A stretch of DNA of 31,162 nucleotides from Candidatus Zhuqueibacterota bacterium (GTDB taxonomy: Bacteria; BS750m-G25), in the NCBI GenBank assembly GCA_016783505.1, contig JADHWK010000024.1, positions 1-31,162 on the forward strand. The letters run 5' to 3'. Below are positions 3,935-30,439 of this stretch, one piece after another. The translations under genes and the position numbers were made by a program. The notes beneath the pieces were generated by a model. That model worked only from the letters and a program-made list of their open reading frames with translations, was not told the DNA's origin and searched no databases. Positions within the stretch are counted from its first letter, which is position 1; each line of letters begins with the position of its first letter.

Positions 3935-5098
3935 TTAATACCGATAAAGTTCCGTGCAGCGGCTGCAGACGGGAAAGGTTTTCCTTTCTTTCACCACTCG
4001 TCGGAAGTCCCGATAGGCATCGCTGTTCCAAATTTCCTTAAAACCCGTCTCCTTTAAATTACCACCGGAAAAATTGATGGAATGAAAGGGACGCACCGAG
4101 CCGTCGGGGAAGATATAGGCCACCATCCAGGGTGAGAGACAACGGTTCCGATAGCTCACTGGCTCGAATTCTAAATTCGAATAATAGCGTTTCACTTCAT
4201 TGTCTGAAAAGTTAGGATAAAATGAGATGTCCACCGATGATGACCTTTTTTTAATTTCATGTATTTTTTCAATCAGGTAATCCACATCAATACGGGGAGA
4301 GGCCGCCCGAATAAAACCGGCCCAGTCGAAACAGGAGCGGCCAAAACGGGGCCGGAAAAAATCCTCATGACGGTCGAATATCTCCTGTGAGATAAAAATT
4401 AAATGGTGAAAGGTGATTGATTTCGCCCTTAAATCCTCGGCGATGTCAATCATTTCTTCCAGATGATGATAGCAGTCTTCGAAAATGGTCCCGGCAAGGT
4501 TAAGCTGGGGCTTTTTCCTGTTTCGCTTTTCCTTAAGTTCGTTGATCTTTTTAAGTCCAATCACCGCCCGGTCGAAAGTGCCCATGGTCCCCCGGATGCG
4601 GTCGTGGATTTCCCGGGGACCGTCTAAGGAAAAGATGATCTCATCCACCCCCAGGTCGACGATGAGCCCGGCGTTTCTTTCAAGCAATGTACCGTTGGTT
4701 ATGATGTTGCAGCGCATCCCTTTTTCTTTGGCCCGCTGGACGATCCTATCCCAGCCCTTATACAGGAGAGGCTCGCCTCCGAACAGGGTGATATTGGGCT
4801 TGAAGGAACTTACTTCATCAATCAGTCTTAAAAAGACATCCGGGGTCAATTCTTGGCGCAACATTTCCGGGGTATAAAATTTGGCCGACCCCACCTCTCC
4901 CCATTGCCCGCACATAGTGCAGCGGAGGTTGCAACGATAGGTTAAAAAAAGGGAGATCGTCTCCGGGTAAGCGCTTTTCCCATCCCACAAATAATAGCTT
5001 AAATAGGATTTCAGGCGTCTCCAGAAATTCCTGATAGCATAATCAGGCTGGGACAGGGCCTTCTTAAACTCCCGGATGAAATTTCTGCGGGGAATCAT
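3935..5098 (-). CDS. Radical SAM protein with SPASM-like C-terminus
   Basis: A 387-residue protein. The CX3CX2C cluster motif is C56, C60, C63 in TYRCNLRCTMCGQW; GGEP follows at 107-110, then ITNGTLL and FSLDGP. These are hallmarks of radical SAM enzymes that cleave S-adenosylmethionine at a [4Fe-4S] cluster. The C-terminal part resembles SPASM domains: C320 in RCLSPW, IFPDGSVRPF, the GN-x-KETGFKEIWNS segment, and C378/C381 in CSRC. The cysteine usually following the PDG motif is replaced (RPFHS), so the auxiliary cluster may be incomplete. Related proteins sit in polysaccharide loci as well as peptide-modification loci; the neighbours here are glycosyltransferases and an aminotransferase, so a sugar-linked role is more likely. 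Substrate unknown. Confidence 0.88.
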   Translation of the reverse strand: MIPRRNFIREFKKALSQPDYAIRNFWRRLKSYLSYYLWDGKSAYPETISLFLTYRCNLRCTMCGQWGEVGSAKFYTPEMLRQELTPDVFLRLIDEVSSFKPNITLFGGEPLLYKGWDRIVQRAKEKGMRCNIITNGTLLERNAGLIVDLGVDEIIFSLDGPREIHDRIRGTMGTFDRAVIGLKKINELKEKRNRKKPQLNLAGTIFEDCYHHLEEMIDIAEDLRAKSITFHHLIFISQEIFDRHEDFFRPRFGRSCFDWAGFIRAASPRIDVDYLIEKIHEIKKRSSSVDISFYPNFSDNEVKRYYSNLEFEPVSYRNRCLSPWMVAYIFPDGSVRPFHSINFSGGNLKETGFKEIWNSDAYRDFRRVVKERKTFPVCSRCTELYRY

Positions 5099-16792: not shown

Positions 16793-17440
16793 TTACTTGC
16801 ACATGATGCTAACGTTATCAAGCCAGACGGCGAATACCAATAAAGTCCAGATTTGATATTGAAAGTCCCTCTTTTTATCAAAATGTGAGATTAGCATCTC
16901 TTGAATATAATCCTTATTAAAATAATCATTCAACCTGCTTGAATTTAGTAGTACGTCCCAGCAAAAATGCTTTAACTCTTTTTCAAACCGTTCTTTAATG
17001 GATAGACGGAAGCCCTGTTTTGGTTTTCTAAGGAGTAGCGAGCGCTCATTTGAATCCCAGATGGCGAAGGCAAACATTCCATTCAGGTGCTTAAAGCATT
17101 CCAACCCTTCTTCTTCGTATAAATGAAGAATGGATTCCGTGTCCGTTCGCGTCTTGAAATGATGGCCTTTTCGAATAAGGAAATCTCGAATTTCTTTGAA
17201 ATTATACAATTCACCATTGTAAACAATATGGACAGCATCGTTTTCATTGGATATGGGCTGATGTCCACCGGCCACGTCAATGATGGCGAGTCGCCGCATG
17301 CCCAACCCCACATTTCGGTTAATAAAAAGCCCCTCATCGTCCGGACCGCGATGGGTTAAGGTTTGGCTCATCCCCCTTAACATCTCCGACCCGACCGATC
17401 TTCCCCGATCAAGATAAATTACACCGCAGATGCCGCACAT
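16793..17440 (-). CDS. AsnB with large in-frame internal deletion (glutaminase domain plus tail)
   Basis: A 215-residue open frame. Residues 1-137 are an intact AsnB glutaminase domain with Cys2, RGPDDEG, NGELYN and RTDTESIL. Directly after NERSLLL it jumps to RKPKQGFRLSIKERF, which corresponds to the AsnB tail KKKQGFTPPLKEWF. About 420 residues holding the PP-loop (SGGIDSS) synthetase core are gone, yet the frame is preserved. It cannot make asparagine; it might still hydrolyse glutamine, or it may be a pseudogene not yet disrupted. The first ~165 bp match the intact asnB at about 95% by eye, then similarity drops, suggesting a recombination or gene-conversion tract. Confidence 0.8.
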   Translation of the reverse strand: MCGICGVIYLDRGRSVGSEMLRGMSQTLTHRGPDDEGLFINRNVGLGMRRLAIIDVAGGHQPISNENDAVHIVYNGELYNFKEIRDFLIRKGHHFKTRTDTESILHLYEEEGLECFKHLNGMFAFAIWDSNERSLLLRKPKQGFRLSIKERFEKELKHFCWDVLLNSSRLNDYFNKDYIQEMLISHFDKKRDFQYQIWTLLVFAVWLDNVSIMCK

Positions 17441-24795: not shown

Positions 24796-25146
24796 TTATT
24801 GAATTCGATCAATACCGAATTCCTTTAGCTGTTGTGCCAGAGCTATTGTAGCTAAAGCGAATTTAAATCCTAAATATTTTTGGGCCTTTTTTAGAAAGTT
24901 AAAGTATCGATGGGTGGAATGTAGGAGGTTACCTAAATTGTTTTTTGCCGTATCTAAATTCAGCTTTGTGGATGGGTAATAAATGCGACCCTTTAAAGCC
25001 GCCGGAATTTTATCTTTATTTGGTAACTTGCCCCATAAGGGAAAAATAAAAATCTGATGGCAAAGTTTTATCATTTGTATCATCTCATCCTCGGCCACCA
25101 TTTTATTCTGGGTGGGGTAAAAATTCAAAAAATAGGCAACCTTCAT
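24796..25146 (-). pseudogene. Truncated GT4 glycosyltransferase (N-terminal third only)
   Basis: A 116-codon frame starting MKVAYFLNFYPTQNKMVAED, closely paralogous to MKIIYFLNSYPTQHKIVAHD of the next gene. It ends at FGIDRIQ followed by two stop codons, exactly where the full protein continues ADRIHCHFA. The donor-binding domain is absent, so it is not a working glycosyltransferase. Its ATG overlaps the stop of the nucleotidyltransferase (ATGA). It may be a remnant of a tandem duplication that lost its 3' part by deletion. Confidence 0.82.
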
Positions 25147-26369
25147 CTCAACCTGCCTGACTTTTTCAACGCAGGCAGCCTTAATAATCGAGAATAGAGA
25201 AAGTAAGATAAAGCCAAAAAGTGCAACAGTAGCACTCGAAAAGCATGAACAATTTTGAAAAATACCAGATGAGGTTCAACTTCTTTTATCCGGTAGGCAG
25301 AACGCATAACTGAATGCTCACTCTCGAGAACAGACCTCTTTATCAAAATTCGATAGGAATTAACAAAATAGTTCAAAAATCCTCGCCCGCCCAGATTAAT
25401 CAACAGAAGCCGACTCAGGGCATAATAAAGCCACCCGGGAACAGACACCCCCCCTTCAAACCAGGGCAAATACCGCTTTATCCGATTTTCAATCGCCAAA
25501 TTATTTGTTTTCAATATTGGTGGAGTCCCAAGTCTCCGTTCGGCAAGGTAAAGAAAGATACAAAGAAAATTTTCCAAATGCAAGTTACGGGCTAATTCTT
25601 CGATTCTATTCCAATTAATCTCATCCCCATCCCGAAACTTCGGGATAAGGTTCGCCAAATCATATAAATCAGCTAAGCTCTGATTTATAAAATTATGATG
25701 GTGATAGGTATTATGGACAAATAGTTGATAAAAATGGTCGGTAGGGTTGGGAAAACGAACAGGAACCTTGTCCTGTACCACGGTGCAACTATTCCAGAAG
25801 GACTCCCAGTCGGGATAATAAAATCGATAACTTCGGGGTTGAAATATTTGAAGGTCAATAAATCCGGCTGAATCCGGTTTGGTAAAATGAAAATCCCCCT
25901 CTCCCCCCTTTTTATAACCTAGATCCCCCAAAATTTCTATCGCTTTTTCATCCTCCCCCTCTCTGACGATAATGTCAACGTCATCCATGATCCTCACCGA
26001 TTCCATGGGGGGGGTCCCGAACAAAAACACAGCGCCCTTCCATACAATCACGTGAAGACCCTCCTGGAAGAAAGCCCCCAGCACCCCAACCAATTCCCTT
26101 TTCAACAGGAAGTTTCTGGCCAAATTTTGATAGTAACCCGCTTCCAACCTCTGGAAGAGTTGAGGAAAATGGGAAGAAGCTATTCCAAGCTGTCTCAGTC
26201 TCCAAAAAAGAAGGGGAACAACTCGGTTTTCCTCTGCACACTGGAGAAATGCATCCAACCCAAACGGTTCCCCTTTTAAATCTAATAATAATTTTTCAGC
26301 AGACTGGCGGGATAAATCAACTCTCAAAAAATTTAATATAACCCTCCTGGTTTTATATTGAACACCCAA
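25143..26369 (-). CDS. Nucleotidyltransferase-fold protein (PF14907-like)
   Basis: A 408-residue protein of the uncharacterised nucleotidyltransferase family. The core is VIVWKGAVFLFG (KG at 111-112) and RIMDDVDIIV (128-135), which carries the paired acidic residues of the Pol-beta-type active site; helical YYQNLARN and HNTYHHHNFINQSLADLYDL segments follow. Members of this family often sit near PqqD-family proteins and HprK-related kinases, as here, and related genes occur in some lasso-peptide clusters. A role in nucleotidylating a peptide or glycan is plausible but unproven. It starts 25 nt after the methyltransferase and is coupled to the GT4 fragment. Confidence 0.83.
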   Translation of the reverse strand: MGVQYKTRRVILNFLRVDLSRQSAEKLLLDLKGEPFGLDAFLQCAEENRVVPLLFWRLRQLGIASSHFPQLFQRLEAGYYQNLARNFLLKRELVGVLGAFFQEGLHVIVWKGAVFLFGTPPMESVRIMDDVDIIVREGEDEKAIEILGDLGYKKGGEGDFHFTKPDSAGFIDLQIFQPRSYRFYYPDWESFWNSCTVVQDKVPVRFPNPTDHFYQLFVHNTYHHHNFINQSLADLYDLANLIPKFRDGDEINWNRIEELARNLHLENFLCIFLYLAERRLGTPPILKTNNLAIENRIKRYLPWFEGGVSVPGWLYYALSRLLLINLGGRGFLNYFVNSYRILIKRSVLESEHSVMRSAYRIKEVEPHLVFFKIVHAFRVLLLHFLALSYFLYSRLLRLPALKKSGRLR

Positions 26370-26394: not shown

Positions 26395-27543
26395 TTAAGC
26401 AAAATTTTCCACCTCCTGAACGACCCGGGCCAGGGCTTGCCTTCGGCTTCGGAAAACCCCCGGAAATTTCCTTCGCAGGGAGGCGGCGATCTGGCCTGAA
26501 GATTTCTTTCCATTGAAGGATGACAGAATCCAGGCCTGAATCCTTCCCTCTAAGGAAGCTTGGGGTTTATAGGCATCAGAAAGTTTTGGAAGCCCCTCTC
26601 TTTTCAAAGGAAAACCCCGAAAAGTGCTGCCTTCTACAGTTTGTTGACCTGTTTTAACCCGCCAGTTGAACCATCCCTCCCGTGTGTATTTCGGCAGTTG
26701 GCACGAGAAGTCAACCTCAACCACCTGATCCTTTTTCACCCGCAGGGGTTGGGATAATGGAAAAAAGGATTGATGCCAGAGATTCTGTGGGGACATGGGC
26801 GAATTGGAGAGCATGACGCTGGGGGACAGCCGGGCGTCAAACCACCCAGCAATCCCGTTAAGCTCCCCGTCCTCCTTGATTTTATAGGAAACCGTGGTAT
26901 GGAACTCGTAGGGGTCATTAGCCGCCAATGAAATTTTATGAACCCTGACCGGTTCGCCGAGCAAATACTCCGCTTTTATCCTTTTCTGATAATAATTATT
27001 GAAAACCATCAGACGGGTCGGGCTGAAATCTATTCCGTAAACCTTTTCCTTCTTTGTAGCCCATATGTCAATTTCACCATAAACCAGTGGAGCTTGGCAG
27101 GGGGCCAGATAGATAAAGATTTCCGATGGAATCAAACAACCGTCTTGCTTGAGGAACCGTCTTTTGGCATCCTGATAGATCCCCTCCACCCCACCGCAGA
27201 CAAAGAGGCTGCTGAAATCTTCGAAGATAAGGACATCTACCTTCTCGGGTAGCTTAACCCGTTGGGATCGGCCATGGAGAAAGACAATGCGATCCTCCAG
27301 ACCGTTGGCCCTGGCAATATCCTCGGCCACGTGAATAATGTCCTCAGACTCAATGGCATAGACCCGGGCCGCCCCCGCCTGACAGGCAAAAATAGCGTAG
27401 GTTCCCAACCCCGTTCCGATCTCAACTACCTTATCCCCCTCCTTTACCTCTTCCAGGATCCCTTTTCGATAGGCCTGAATTCGAACCCTATCGTTGGCCA
27501 TCTGCCGATAATCATTGATCAAGGCCATAGGTTTTATCACCAA
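26395..27543 (-). CDS. PRMT-like SAM methyltransferase with C-terminal PqqD/RRE-like domain
   Basis: A 382-residue protein. Residues 7-30 and the SAM motif VVEIGTGLGTYAIFACQAGA (from about 39), then RVYAIESEDI and LPEKVDVLIFEDFSSLF, align with protein arginine methyltransferases (compare VLDVGTGTG and the double-E loop). The first acidic residue of the double-E loop is present (FED), the second is not obvious. A beta-barrel-like middle follows. The last ~52 residues, with AWILSSFNGKKSSGQIAASL, resemble the winged-helix PqqD/RRE fold that binds leader peptides. An ATG at residue 6 is an alternative start. Its target may be a peptide. It lies between the nucleotidyltransferase and a 377-nt spacer. 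Confidence 0.8.
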   Translation of the reverse strand: MVIKPMALINDYRQMANDRVRIQAYRKGILEEVKEGDKVVEIGTGLGTYAIFACQAGAARVYAIESEDIIHVAEDIARANGLEDRIVFLHGRSQRVKLPEKVDVLIFEDFSSLFVCGGVEGIYQDAKRRFLKQDGCLIPSEIFIYLAPCQAPLVYGEIDIWATKKEKVYGIDFSPTRLMVFNNYYQKRIKAEYLLGEPVRVHKISLAANDPYEFHTTVSYKIKEDGELNGIAGWFDARLSPSVMLSNSPMSPQNLWHQSFFPLSQPLRVKKDQVVEVDFSCQLPKYTREGWFNWRVKTGQQTVEGSTFRGFPLKREGLPKLSDAYKPQASLEGRIQAWILSSFNGKKSSGQIAASLRRKFPGVFRSRRQALARVVQEVENFA

Positions 27544-27920: not shown

Positions 27921-28856
27921 CTATCCAGTCAATTCTTCAATTATTCCCACCGCCTCATCCGCATCCCGGTAGGAAAGTTTATACCCCCGACAACCCCGGG
28001 CCAAATTTGGGAGAATGTCAAACCATCCCCCCCTGAACTGATCGAAGTTAAACGAATGTTCTATCAGACCTGTAATTATCCCGGCCTGACCAATGGGCTC
28101 AAGGCCGGTCTCTCTGGTGCGATCATACTGGGGAAAAACTACGTAATTTAACTTTAATCCTTTGGCAGGAAAAGGATATTCCTTGATCGCTCGGGGGTTA
28201 AGGTAGAAGATTTTTTGGGGACGATACTCCTCGTCAGGTTCAGAATACGAAAAATCTAAATTCCCAATACAATCACCGGAGCGGCTCGCCCTGACAACAA
28301 AATTTCTCGGGTAGGGAAACAAAAGAAGCGAATCGGGGTCAATCAGCACTACTTCATCCGACAGAACATTATACCCGCGCTTGAGCAAAGCCAGCACCAA
28401 GCTGGTCTTCCCGGCCCCATTACCGCCGGGAAAGATGATCGTTCTCTCATTTCTCTCGACCCCCCCCGCATGAAGCTGATAATACCCGTCCAGGTTTTTG
28501 AGAATTTGCTCGGTAACTATCCATTCCAGCATGGGAAAGGAATGTTCGAGGCATTCTCCTTTATAGACGACCCGGTGATTTCTATAAACGTTTACACCTT
28601 CCCCATTCCCTCCAACCCTGGGGCGGATCTTTATAGCAAATGTGGCCATTGGCGTAATATCACCATTTGTCCTGGAGCTTGGATATACGCCCGCTGAAAT
28701 GTGGGGGGCCAATTCGCTTGGATAACGAAGTTGAAAGGGATAATGATAAACCTTATAATTTTGAAAACAGTCCATCTTGGATAATTGGATATTTGGATAA
28801 ATGAGTGGGTATGGTTGCTCTACGTTTTCAGTATAAATGAAATTTTTACAAAGCAA
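27921..28856 (-). CDS. HprK-related serine kinase-like protein
   Basis: A 311-residue protein. The Walker A loop GGNGAGKT is at 144-151, preceded by LHAGGVERNERTIIF and followed by LSDEVVLID, an arrangement typical of the HPr kinase/phosphorylase fold. Relatives (HprK-related kinases A/B) occur with PqqD-family proteins in peptide or exopolysaccharide loci; lasso-peptide kinases are similar in fold. It may phosphorylate a peptide or protein. The 130 residues before the P-loop have no motif I recognise. It probably was in one transcription unit with the PqqD gene before the transposase inserted, but 377 nt separate it from the methyltransferase. Confidence 0.85.
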   Translation of the reverse strand: MLCKNFIYTENVEQPYPLIYPNIQLSKMDCFQNYKVYHYPFQLRYPSELAPHISAGVYPSSRTNGDITPMATFAIKIRPRVGGNGEGVNVYRNHRVVYKGECLEHSFPMLEWIVTEQILKNLDGYYQLHAGGVERNERTIIFPGGNGAGKTSLVLALLKRGYNVLSDEVVLIDPDSLLLFPYPRNFVVRASRSGDCIGNLDFSYSEPDEEYRPQKIFYLNPRAIKEYPFPAKGLKLNYVVFPQYDRTRETGLEPIGQAGIITGLIEHSFNFDQFRGGWFDILPNLARGCRGYKLSYRDADEAVGIIEELTG

Positions 28857-28976: not shown

Positions 28977-29639
28977 TCATTGCTTCATCTCCCAGATAAA
29001 CTCTTTCCAGAATTTTTTTTCTGCCTTATCAGGTTTTCCATCAGGATTTTCTCTATCATATTCCCATCTTAACGAATTGTTGATGATGTATTCACGAATT
29101 CGATTTAATTCATTTTCATTTCGGATGACGTGCTCGTAATAATTGCGTTGCCATACGGGTGCCCCAGGGGTATGGCGCATTTCGTTGATTTGTTTGGTGA
29201 CGGTGGATTTAAATCCCCGGATGATGATTGGTATTGATCCCGAAACCGGTTTACCGAATGATTCATGTTTTGGGTTACGATTTGTTGGGGCACGATGCAT
29301 CGTGCCCCTACCACAGATATCAACAATAAACAATATTCCGTGTAAATGGTTTGGCATAATGATGTGTACATCCAATTCAATATTATGGCGCATTTGGGCG
29401 GTTTTTAACCACTCAGTTTCAACGATTTTGCTATATTCATTAAAATGCATTTTGCCATTGATCACATTGCCCAACATGCATTCCCTATTGTATGCACAAA
29501 TTGTAATAAAATATGCTCCGGGTTGTGAATAATCATAATTTCTCAACCTGATTGACCGCCTGTGATGTTTTTCTTTATTATCCATTATCAACCTAAACTG
29601 TGTTCTCCAATTTTTCCTGTCATTATATTCAGAACTCAT
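28977..29639 (-). CDS. REP-associated tyrosine transposase (Y1_Tnp, TnpA-REP type)
   Basis: A 220-residue HuH-type transposase. IRLRNYDYSQPGAYFITICA is the family N-terminus; HIIMPNHLHG at 92-101 supplies the two metal-binding histidines, and NYYEHVIRNENE (166-177) the catalytic tyrosine. Such single-strand-specific enzymes mobilise REP palindromes. A perfect 22-bp palindrome is inside the gene (29287-29308) and a direct repeat flanks it. It separates the PqqD and HprK genes, which in related loci are normally adjacent, so it is probably an insertion. Length and motifs look intact. Confidence 0.92.
   Translation of the reverse strand: MSSEYNDRKNWRTQFRLIMDNKEKHHRRSIRLRNYDYSQPGAYFITICAYNRECMLGNVINGKMHFNEYSKIVETEWLKTAQMRHNIELDVHIIMPNHLHGILFIVDICGRGTMHRAPTNRNPKHESFGKPVSGSIPIIIRGFKSTVTKQINEMRHTPGAPVWQRNYYEHVIRNENELNRIREYIINNSLRWEYDRENPDGKPDKAEKKFWKEFIWEMKQ
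29287..29308. repeat. Perfect 22-bp palindrome (REP-like) inside the transposase gene
   Basis: GGGGCACGATG is followed immediately by its reverse complement CATCGTGCCCC. It encodes RGTMHRAP in frame, an insertion between the metal-binding and tyrosine blocks. Such sequences are candidate substrates of this transposase family. Confidence 0.75.
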
Positions 29640-29735: not shown

Positions 29736-30026
29736 TCAACGAACATCACTATAATTTACCAAGAGACCCTTTTTTGAAAAAGAGCCCACCGTCTTTATGA
29801 CCTCTTCCAAAACTTTAGCATTCTCAGGTCGGAAGCCCCGAGTTATCCCGTCGGCAATTCCCTTGATGGAATGGGTGCCATCCGACATACACCAGATATA
29901 AGCAGCGATAGGGTTTAACGTATGAACTTTTCCCTTTTCGGATTCATAAAGTATACAGCCGTCATCCAACTCACGGAAAAGCACATCCCCCCGCACCTTT
30001 GGTTTATAATTCTGGTCTATCTTCAT
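29736..30026 (-). CDS. PqqD-family (RRE-like) peptide chaperone
   Basis: A 96-residue protein. VLFRELDDGCILYESEKGKV, then HTLNPIAAYIWCMSDGTHSI (37-54) and IKGIADGITRGF form the PqqD pattern, in which NxxAAxIW-x4-DG marks the winged-helix fold. PqqD relatives bind leader peptides and present them to modifying enzymes; those paired with HprK-related kinases are a described but uncharacterised group. The ATG at 30026 is followed directly by KIDQNYKPKVRG, typical for the family. It is preceded by a terminator hairpin and the 56-residue peptide gene. Binding of that peptide is inference. Confidence 0.88.
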   Translation of the reverse strand: MKIDQNYKPKVRGDVLFRELDDGCILYESEKGKVHTLNPIAAYIWCMSDGTHSIKGIADGITRGFRPENAKVLEEVIKTVGSFSKKGLLVNYSDVR

Positions 30027-30084
30027 GTCCCGGAAATTTTCCTGGTGTCCCTGAATTAGTCAAAATACCATAACAAAATAAATA

Positions 30085-30110
30085 AACGAAAACCGACCCC
30101 AAGGGTCGGT
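30085..30110 (-). terminator. Terminator after the small peptide gene, minus strand
   Basis: On the minus strand ACCGACCC pairs with GGGTCGGT (8 bp) around a TTG loop, followed by TTTCGTTTATTT. It lies between the peptide gene (stop at 30209) and the PqqD gene, so it could end or attenuate the peptide transcript before the enzymes. Confidence 0.8.
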
Positions 30111-30208
30111 TCGATGTAAAATTTTCGATTGTCATTCTCCTCGCTACCGCCGCATATACACAGACTCGTGTTGGAGTCCATAAAAAATACCCCCATCCCT
30201 GAGCTTGT

Positions 30209-30379
30209 CTATGGCGGGCCTGGAGGTGCTGGCTCCCACCACCCATGGGGGGTATGTTTATGTCCATGCCCCCCCTCCTGAGCCCAAAGGTCTCCGATGC
30301 GATAGGTTAAAATCACAGGCACCGAGTAAGCACAGGTCTTGACCAATTTTTTCAAAAATTCTCGCTTTGACTTATCCAT
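30209..30379 (-). CDS. 56-residue candidate precursor peptide with Tat-like/leader N-terminus
   Basis: Read on the minus strand from ATG at 30379 to TAG at 30209. Residues 1-14 are MDKSKREFLKKLVK; S-K-R-E-F-L-K fits the Tat consensus except that the first Arg is Lys. Residues 15-26 (TCAYSVPVILTY) are hydrophobic, DLWA-Q (30-34) gives a signal-peptidase-like site, and residues 36-56 are Gly/His/Pro/Trp-rich, with GGHGHKHTPHGWWEP. AGGA lies 3-4 nt before the start, a near-perfect promoter 32 nt further upstream, and a terminator follows. It was not long enough for routine gene calls. Upstream of a PqqD protein, kinase, nucleotidyltransferase and methyltransferase, it could be their substrate; an exported small protein is an alternative. 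Coding status is supported by start, promoter and the leader-like order, not by homology. Confidence 0.7.
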   Translation of the reverse strand: MDKSKREFLKKLVKTCAYSVPVILTYRIGDLWAQEGGHGHKHTPHGWWEPAPPGPP

Positions 30380-30410
30380 AATCCTGCCAATTTTTTTACT
30401 TTAACGAAAT

Positions 30411-30439
30411 AATATAATAAATTTAAATCTATTTGTCAA
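30411..30439 (-). promoter_or_regulatory. Predicted strong sigma70 promoter for the small peptide gene
   Basis: Minus strand: TTGACA (30439-30434), exactly 17 nt, then TATATT (30416-30411). Transcription would start near 30404, leaving about 25 nt before the ATG at 30379. The -35 box is perfect and the -10 box has one mismatch. The region also holds the start of the truncated plus-strand ORF. Confidence 0.75.

Follow-up and report, generated by a model that had tools for sequence, protein, structure and literature searches.

The closest known system to the locus described here is that of the linear polyphosphorylated peptides (LPPs; Popov et al., Nat Commun 2026, PMC13381572), which combines a stand-alone RRE, an HprK-like kinase, and an NTP transferase in a polysaccharide locus that lacks a macrocyclase, and whose precursors have YxxPx[IV]-type leaders and variable tails. 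In LPPs, Ser3 of the core is the residue that the kinase phosphorylates, and the leader is taken off by a SipW-like peptidase (PMC13381572). LPPs have been found in Bacillota only, and their own features include the leader motif YxxPxVLxHQxIxFETxxS, the SipW-like leader peptidase, and an MsbA-like exporter; no PRMT-fold methyltransferase has been reported with them. A discrete RRE, an HprK-like kinase, and an NTP transferase are likewise found together in clusters for phosphorylated lasso peptides of the paeninodin type. A PqqD-like protein occurs in both the HPr-rel-A (TIGR04352/TIGR04353) and SynChlorMet (TIGR04248) systems, accompanied in HPr-rel-A by an HprK-related kinase.

We analyzed a 31,162-nucleotide stretch of DNA from a Candidatus Zhuqueibacterota bacterium (the window), in which an unannotated 56-codon ORF is present upstream of genes for PqqD-family, HprK-like, PRMT-fold, and PF14907 proteins (Table 1). 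A sequence-only reading of this DNA had described this series of genes on one strand, and Pfam and NCBIfam matches confirm it; the best NCBIfam matches of the window proteins are the HPr-rel-A and SynChlorMet models, all below their cut-offs. That reading missed the YxxP motif and the Tat-like N-terminus of the peptide, the transposase gene inside the operon, and a frameshifted second copy of the peptide gene. Its proposal that the enzyme set acts on this peptide is supported here. We consider it likely (probability about 0.8) that this ORF is the gene of an RRE-dependent RiPP precursor, which would be bound by the RRE, modified by the kinase, methyltransferase, and transferase, and probably exported by Tat; the peptide is very probably a RiPP precursor. 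Relative to LPPs, the distinguishing features are the Tat-like leader, a PRMT-fold enzyme with an RRE-like tail, and occurrence in candidate phyla.

Table 1. Features of the peptide locus (positions in the window)
Feature	Position	Strand	Evidence or remark
Sigma-70-type promoter TTGACA-N17-TATATT	30411..30439	-	11/12 consensus; shuffle control; conserved in C81 copy
Precursor peptide gene, 56 aa, MDKSKREFLKKLVKTCAYSVPVILTYRIGDLWAQEGGHGHKHTPHGWWEPAPPGPP	30209..30379	-	Leader homologues in several phyla, their tails variable; HMM built without the window peptide
KREFLK, residues 5-10, twin-basic leader motif (Tat-like)	30350..30367	-	Leader alignments
YSVPVI, residues 18-23, predicted RRE-binding motif [YF]xxPx[IV]	30311..30328	-	25/25 family members
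Predicted core QEGGHGHKHTPHGWWEPAPPGPP	30212..30280	-	Assumes cleavage after LWA (residue 33)
Hairpin, 9-bp GC-rich, T-rich tail	30090..30112	-	Between peptide gene and pqqD
Discrete RRE (PqqD family), lasso B1-like	29736..30026	-	PF05402, 34.9 bits
REP-associated tyrosine transposase gene between pqqD and hprK	28977..29639	-	NF047646 E 8.9e-16, below cut-off
HprK-like kinase	27921..28778	-	TIGR04352 E 8e-34, below cut-off
PRMT-fold methyltransferase with C-terminal RRE-like wHTH	26395..27543	-	PF22528, PF17286
PF14907 nucleotidyltransferase (NTP5)	25143..26369	-	Pfam E 1.1e-34

The ORF is a real gene. A leader HMM built without the window peptide matches it alone among the 319 ORFs of the window (E 3.5e-8), so it is more than a chance reading frame; Pfam, NCBIfam, and PHROGs contain no model that matches it. 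The gene had been credited with its own promoter and terminator, of which the promoter holds up: when the region was shuffled 300 times with its dinucleotides preserved, an equally good match to the consensus turned up in 2.7% of cases, and both boxes and their spacing are conserved in the second gene copy. The hairpin with its T-rich tail is present but is not above chance by count (2 found vs 1.8 expected). We also considered whether the peptide gene is carried by an element with terminal repeats, but saw no flanking inverted repeats.

The second copy, on contig C81 of the same genome (G000:C81:34287-34433, minus strand; L021/L065), shares 72% protein identity with the window peptide over 48 residues. 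It has the same -35 and -10 boxes and the same start, and one extra A in an A-run breaks its frame. Nine leader codons differ from those of the window, four of them synonymously and two as Val to Ile. No PqqD, HprK, or PRMT gene was detected beside this copy, which looks like a decayed duplicate, a pseudogene being the simplest reading. TGA recoding or selenocysteine was rejected in view of the 1-base insertion in the A-run.

The leader consensus of the family is [RK]RxFLKK...[YF]xxPx[IV]x[ST]Fx[LIV]. In the alignments the second Arg of the twin-basic motif is invariant and the first is Arg or Lys, with KR in the window and mostly RRxFLK in relatives, while the downstream YSVPVI matches the motif bound by LppB/TbiB1-type RREs (PMC13381572). 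The cleavage site after LWA is a guess from the LxA/VxA pattern of several relatives. Thr43, the only Thr of the window tail, falls within the predicted core; all 25 tails contain at least one Ser or Thr, although no single residue is conserved across all. The tails are variable but strongly biased in composition (WTGHGHH-Pn, MSPMSPM, and GAR repeats). GHGHxHTP is common to the window core and the Marinimicrobia peptide of G591, and the similarity between the window and Marinimicrobia tails is largely compositional (shuffle p 0.006 to 0.32). An RRE-fold protein in the locus and short precursors with a conserved leader and a variable core (25 peptides compared) are two features of an RRE-dependent RiPP that are seen here.

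Relative loci were gathered by their HprK, PqqD, or PRMT relatives; a search of the phylum around the source genome returned the source genome alone. Leader-bearing small ORFs accompany PqqD-HprK-(PRMT)-(NTP5) modules in Poribacteria, Tectomicrobia, and other lineages. Peptide ORFs adjoin PqqD and/or HprK in L047 of G214 (two in tandem, with GAR-repeat tails), in L049 and the Tectomicrobia locus L072 (MSPMSPM tails), in L073 (two) and L054 of the Tectomicrobia genome G047, in Poribacteria L071, where the peptide is beside the enzyme genes, and at two loci of G144, L060 and L114. G053 (L129) and G584 (L204) show the window's gene order PqqD-HprK-PRMT-NTP5, in both cases inside loci for polysaccharide export. 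The sequence-only reading had suggested looking for short ORFs with the same leader near PqqD and HprK; these are found, with conserved leaders and variable tails, in several phyla, so that homologous small ORFs, whose absence from related PqqD/HprK loci it had named as grounds for rejection, are present.

A first leader HMM, made from 11 peptides, was run over 385 genomes. Its full-length matches have E <= 7.3e-14, followed by two weaker small-ORF matches (2.2e-7 and 3.2e-6), and the other matches are essentially just the RRxFLK part of large Tat proteins (E >= 5e-4). A leader-like small ORF in G054 (L115 7758-8030, E 3e-6) was set aside, its genome being without any PF05402 match. In G329 (Candidatus Marinimicrobia UBA2242), which has a PqqD-HprK-PRMT module without an adjacent peptide, the HMM found a peptide on another contig. 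In G053, the peptide was first found as an orphan and a PqqD-HprK-PRMT-NTP5 module was then found on another contig, and in G144 the search revealed the second peptide beside a second PqqD. The findings in these three genomes had not been put into the first HMM.

An updated HMM, run over 245 genomes of the phylum of G329 (Marinimicrobia), identified 14 peptide carriers, of which 12 had been unknown before; the tails of their peptides follow the pattern W1-4-T-[GA]-H-[GH]-H...P4-8. Peptide and PRMT occur together in 10 of these genomes, the peptide only in 4, the PRMT only in 3, and neither in 228 (Fisher 1.5e-12, or 2.9e-10 without the two training genomes; several genomes are incomplete, and the p-values overstate independence because ancestry is shared within families). 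Counting against the assignment, no peptide was detected in the PRMT-positive genomes G588, G592, and G601 or with rSAM- or AsnB-type modules. The Marinimicrobia peptide gene is unlinked to the module; its neighbors are in several cases lipoprotein-like genes whose N-terminal domains are TPR and FN3-like, and in others thyX-like genes (L003, L189, L191, L195).

The window PqqD protein is, by its predicted structure, an RRE fold of the lasso B1 type. Searched against the PDB, its alignment profile finds TbiB1, TfuB1, and LppB (9x8z) as the best solved relatives, the first two outscoring LppB, and the predicted structure (pLDDT 89.9) matches the folds of TfuB1 (Z 12.3) and TbiB1 (Z 12.2). In LppB, N33 holds a kink at the leader proline and N33A nearly abolishes binding, while D70 hydrogen-bonds the leader tyrosine and D70A reduces binding (PMC13381572). 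All 16 PqqD proteins examined have Asn at the position of N33. At that of D70, an acidic residue (Asp or Glu) is found in 5/5 modules with a Tyr leader vs 2/11 with a Phe leader (p 0.0048, which ignores shared ancestry, especially within the Phe group). This covariation is the best indirect evidence that leader and RRE would bind one another; the residue played no part in finding the peptides. The substrate assignment draws on the conserved leaders with variable tails that accompany such modules in several phyla, the co-occurrence of peptide and module by genome, and the pairing of a lasso-type YxxPx[IV] motif with a lasso-type RRE.

The covariation also bears on whether the small ORFs are ordinary small Tat-exported polysaccharide or cell-surface proteins, with the PqqD-HprK-PRMT-NTP5 module acting on something else. 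We regard this as unlikely, since YxxPx[IV]x[ST]F is needless for Tat function and a loose form of it occurs in only 2/17 ordinary Tat N-termini, since peptide and RRE covary at the Tyr-binding position, and since the peptide is repeatedly adjacent to the module and co-occurs with it at the genome level. It does account for RRxFLK, a classic Tat motif, and for the unlinked peptide gene of Marinimicrobia, which several times lies beside TPR lipoprotein-like genes; in addition, L113, alone among the members scanned, passes the Tat model TIGR01409, and TatC is encoded in 12/12 carrier genomes tested, though also in 11/14 control genomes. For the RiPP precursor that we favor, a leader that is also a signal peptide has precedent in DUF2063 systems, whose precursors carry Sec-dependent signal peptides (PMC12710340). 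The open-access papers searched gave no account of a Tat-like leader combined with an RRE motif.

The transposase gene between pqqD and hprK is absent from the compact pqqD-hprK pairs of relatives; as these keep the two genes adjacent, it is probably an insertion outside the pathway. In the kinase, the Walker A GKT, His103, and D141-E142 are invariant in 14 homologues. Its alignment profile gives a weak match in the PDB to HPr(Ser) kinase 3tqf, and a single-sequence search of the PDB gave no match.

The locus could belong to a non-Bacillota branch of LPP that has another leader peptidase and an added methyltransferase. The set of RRE, HprK, and NTP transferase in polysaccharide loci, the variable tails, and the one to three precursors per cluster are as in LPP (PMC13381572), and 9x8z, the structure of LppB, ranks with the best profile matches of the window PqqD. 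However, the window leader begins in a Tat-like manner and is without HQxIxFETxxS, so that only the YxxPx[VI]L part of the LPP motif matches YSVPVILTYRIGDLWAQ; TbiB1 and TfuB1 score above LppB, and LPPs are reported as Bacillota-restricted. Moreover, a Pfam scan of the window ORFs, on a contig that ends just upstream of the peptide gene in a genome about 60% complete, found no SipW-like SpI, and no MsbA-like/ABC exporter was seen among the window ORFs scanned, again up to the contig edge. We therefore treat an LPP branch as possible but doubtful.

The methyltransferase matches the folds of PRMT6 and PRMT3 (Foldseek E about 1e-32, TM about 0.7 on the query) and contains the AdoMet motif. Unlike these eukaryotic enzymes, it has a C-terminal RRE-like domain: its last 65 aa match the PqqD profile (hhalign probability 94.7%), and PF05402 is detected in 7/13 members. 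The double-E loop and THW are hallmarks of arginine methylation in PRMTs. In the window enzyme the first Glu is kept, the second is Gly, and THW aligns with NLW; most peptide-linked relatives likewise lack the second Glu and the THW His. Due to these losses, we infer that the window-type enzymes act on something other than arginine, with histidine as a guess from the composition of the tails. The methyltransferase of L047, cut by the contig end, keeps both Glu, and the peptides of this locus are rich in RG repeats.

Other loci combine related enzymes differently. L068, L069, and L152 are PqqD-rSAM-(HprK)-PRMT-NTP5 clusters, whose methyltransferases keep the double-E loop and THW signatures, and L068 and L069 encode a different small peptide with a YxKPxI...LxPEEAVL-type leader. 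In L153 and L155, PRMT-like and HprK genes are found beside PqqD and AsnB-type, possibly lasso, synthetases.

The remainder of the window is a polysaccharide locus encoding glycosyltransferases, an epimerase, a flippase, and an XrtA-type amidotransferase. The last of these, an asparagine synthase about 12 kb from the module, raises the question whether this is a lasso peptide system whose cyclase and B2 protease are encoded at other loci of the genome, as would suit a lasso-type RRE, a YxxP leader, a kinase and NTP transferase as in paeninodin clusters, and PRMT relatives that occur with AsnB-type synthetases (L153, L155). This protein, however, scores far higher against the XrtA/EPS amidotransferase model TIGR03108 (628 bits) than against that of lasso cyclases (283 bits), and the genome, only about 60% complete, contains no match to Transglut_core3 (B2, PF13471). 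In the window tail, no Gly, Ala, Ser, or Cys is followed 6-8 residues later by Asp or Glu. In contrast to paeninodin-type systems, there is no B2 found, no cyclase in the module, and a tail unable to form the canonical ring. By sequence, lasso membership fails on both cyclase and core, leaving this alternative very improbable; the earlier statements that the module contains no B2 protease or typical cyclase, and that the peptide would belong to a class other than lasso, agree with these results.

Elsewhere in the window, two short ORFs (16793-17440 and 24796-25146) are probably decayed duplicates; they resemble an asparagine synthase that lacks the greater part of its synthase domain and the N-terminal part of the neighboring glycosyltransferase. 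A radical SAM/SPASM protein (3935-5098) has a very close homologue (E about 1e-131) at L129 11078-12244, near the module of the Marinimicrobia-phylum genome G053.

Taking the peptide as the precursor of an RRE-dependent RiPP, the leader would bind the stand-alone RRE through its YxxPx[IV] motif, lying in the RRE groove as a beta strand. The RRE would present the peptide to the HprK-like kinase, which would phosphorylate a Ser or Thr of the variable tail, Thr43 being the only candidate in the window, and also to the PRMT-fold methyltransferase, which carries its own RRE-like domain. The PF14907 transferase may cap the phosphate. Against this model, the related kinase LppK failed to accept a Thr substituted for its Ser (PMC13381572). 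As the leader starts RRxFLK-like and often ends in LxA/VxA, the modified peptide would probably be exported by Tat and then cut by signal peptidase.

We found no description of this peptide family in the open-access literature. We see the system as a novel variation on the discrete-RRE/HprK theme, and there is some chance that it forms a class by itself. Only tentatively, it might represent a separate multi-phylum RiPP class in which the leader serves as both Tat signal and RRE handle, a kinase and a repurposed PRMT-fold enzyme act on the peptide, the latter on another side chain (His being the obvious candidate), and His/Met-rich peptides are displayed or released in connection with exopolysaccharide, perhaps binding metal. 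The peptide family offers a concrete substrate for PqqD/HprK/PF14907 sets in polysaccharide loci that have been annotated without one, and would extend LPP-like chemistry beyond Bacillota. It also draws attention to a PRMT-fold enzyme whose specificity is probably altered, and to peptides that may undergo modification in the cytoplasm before Tat exports them.
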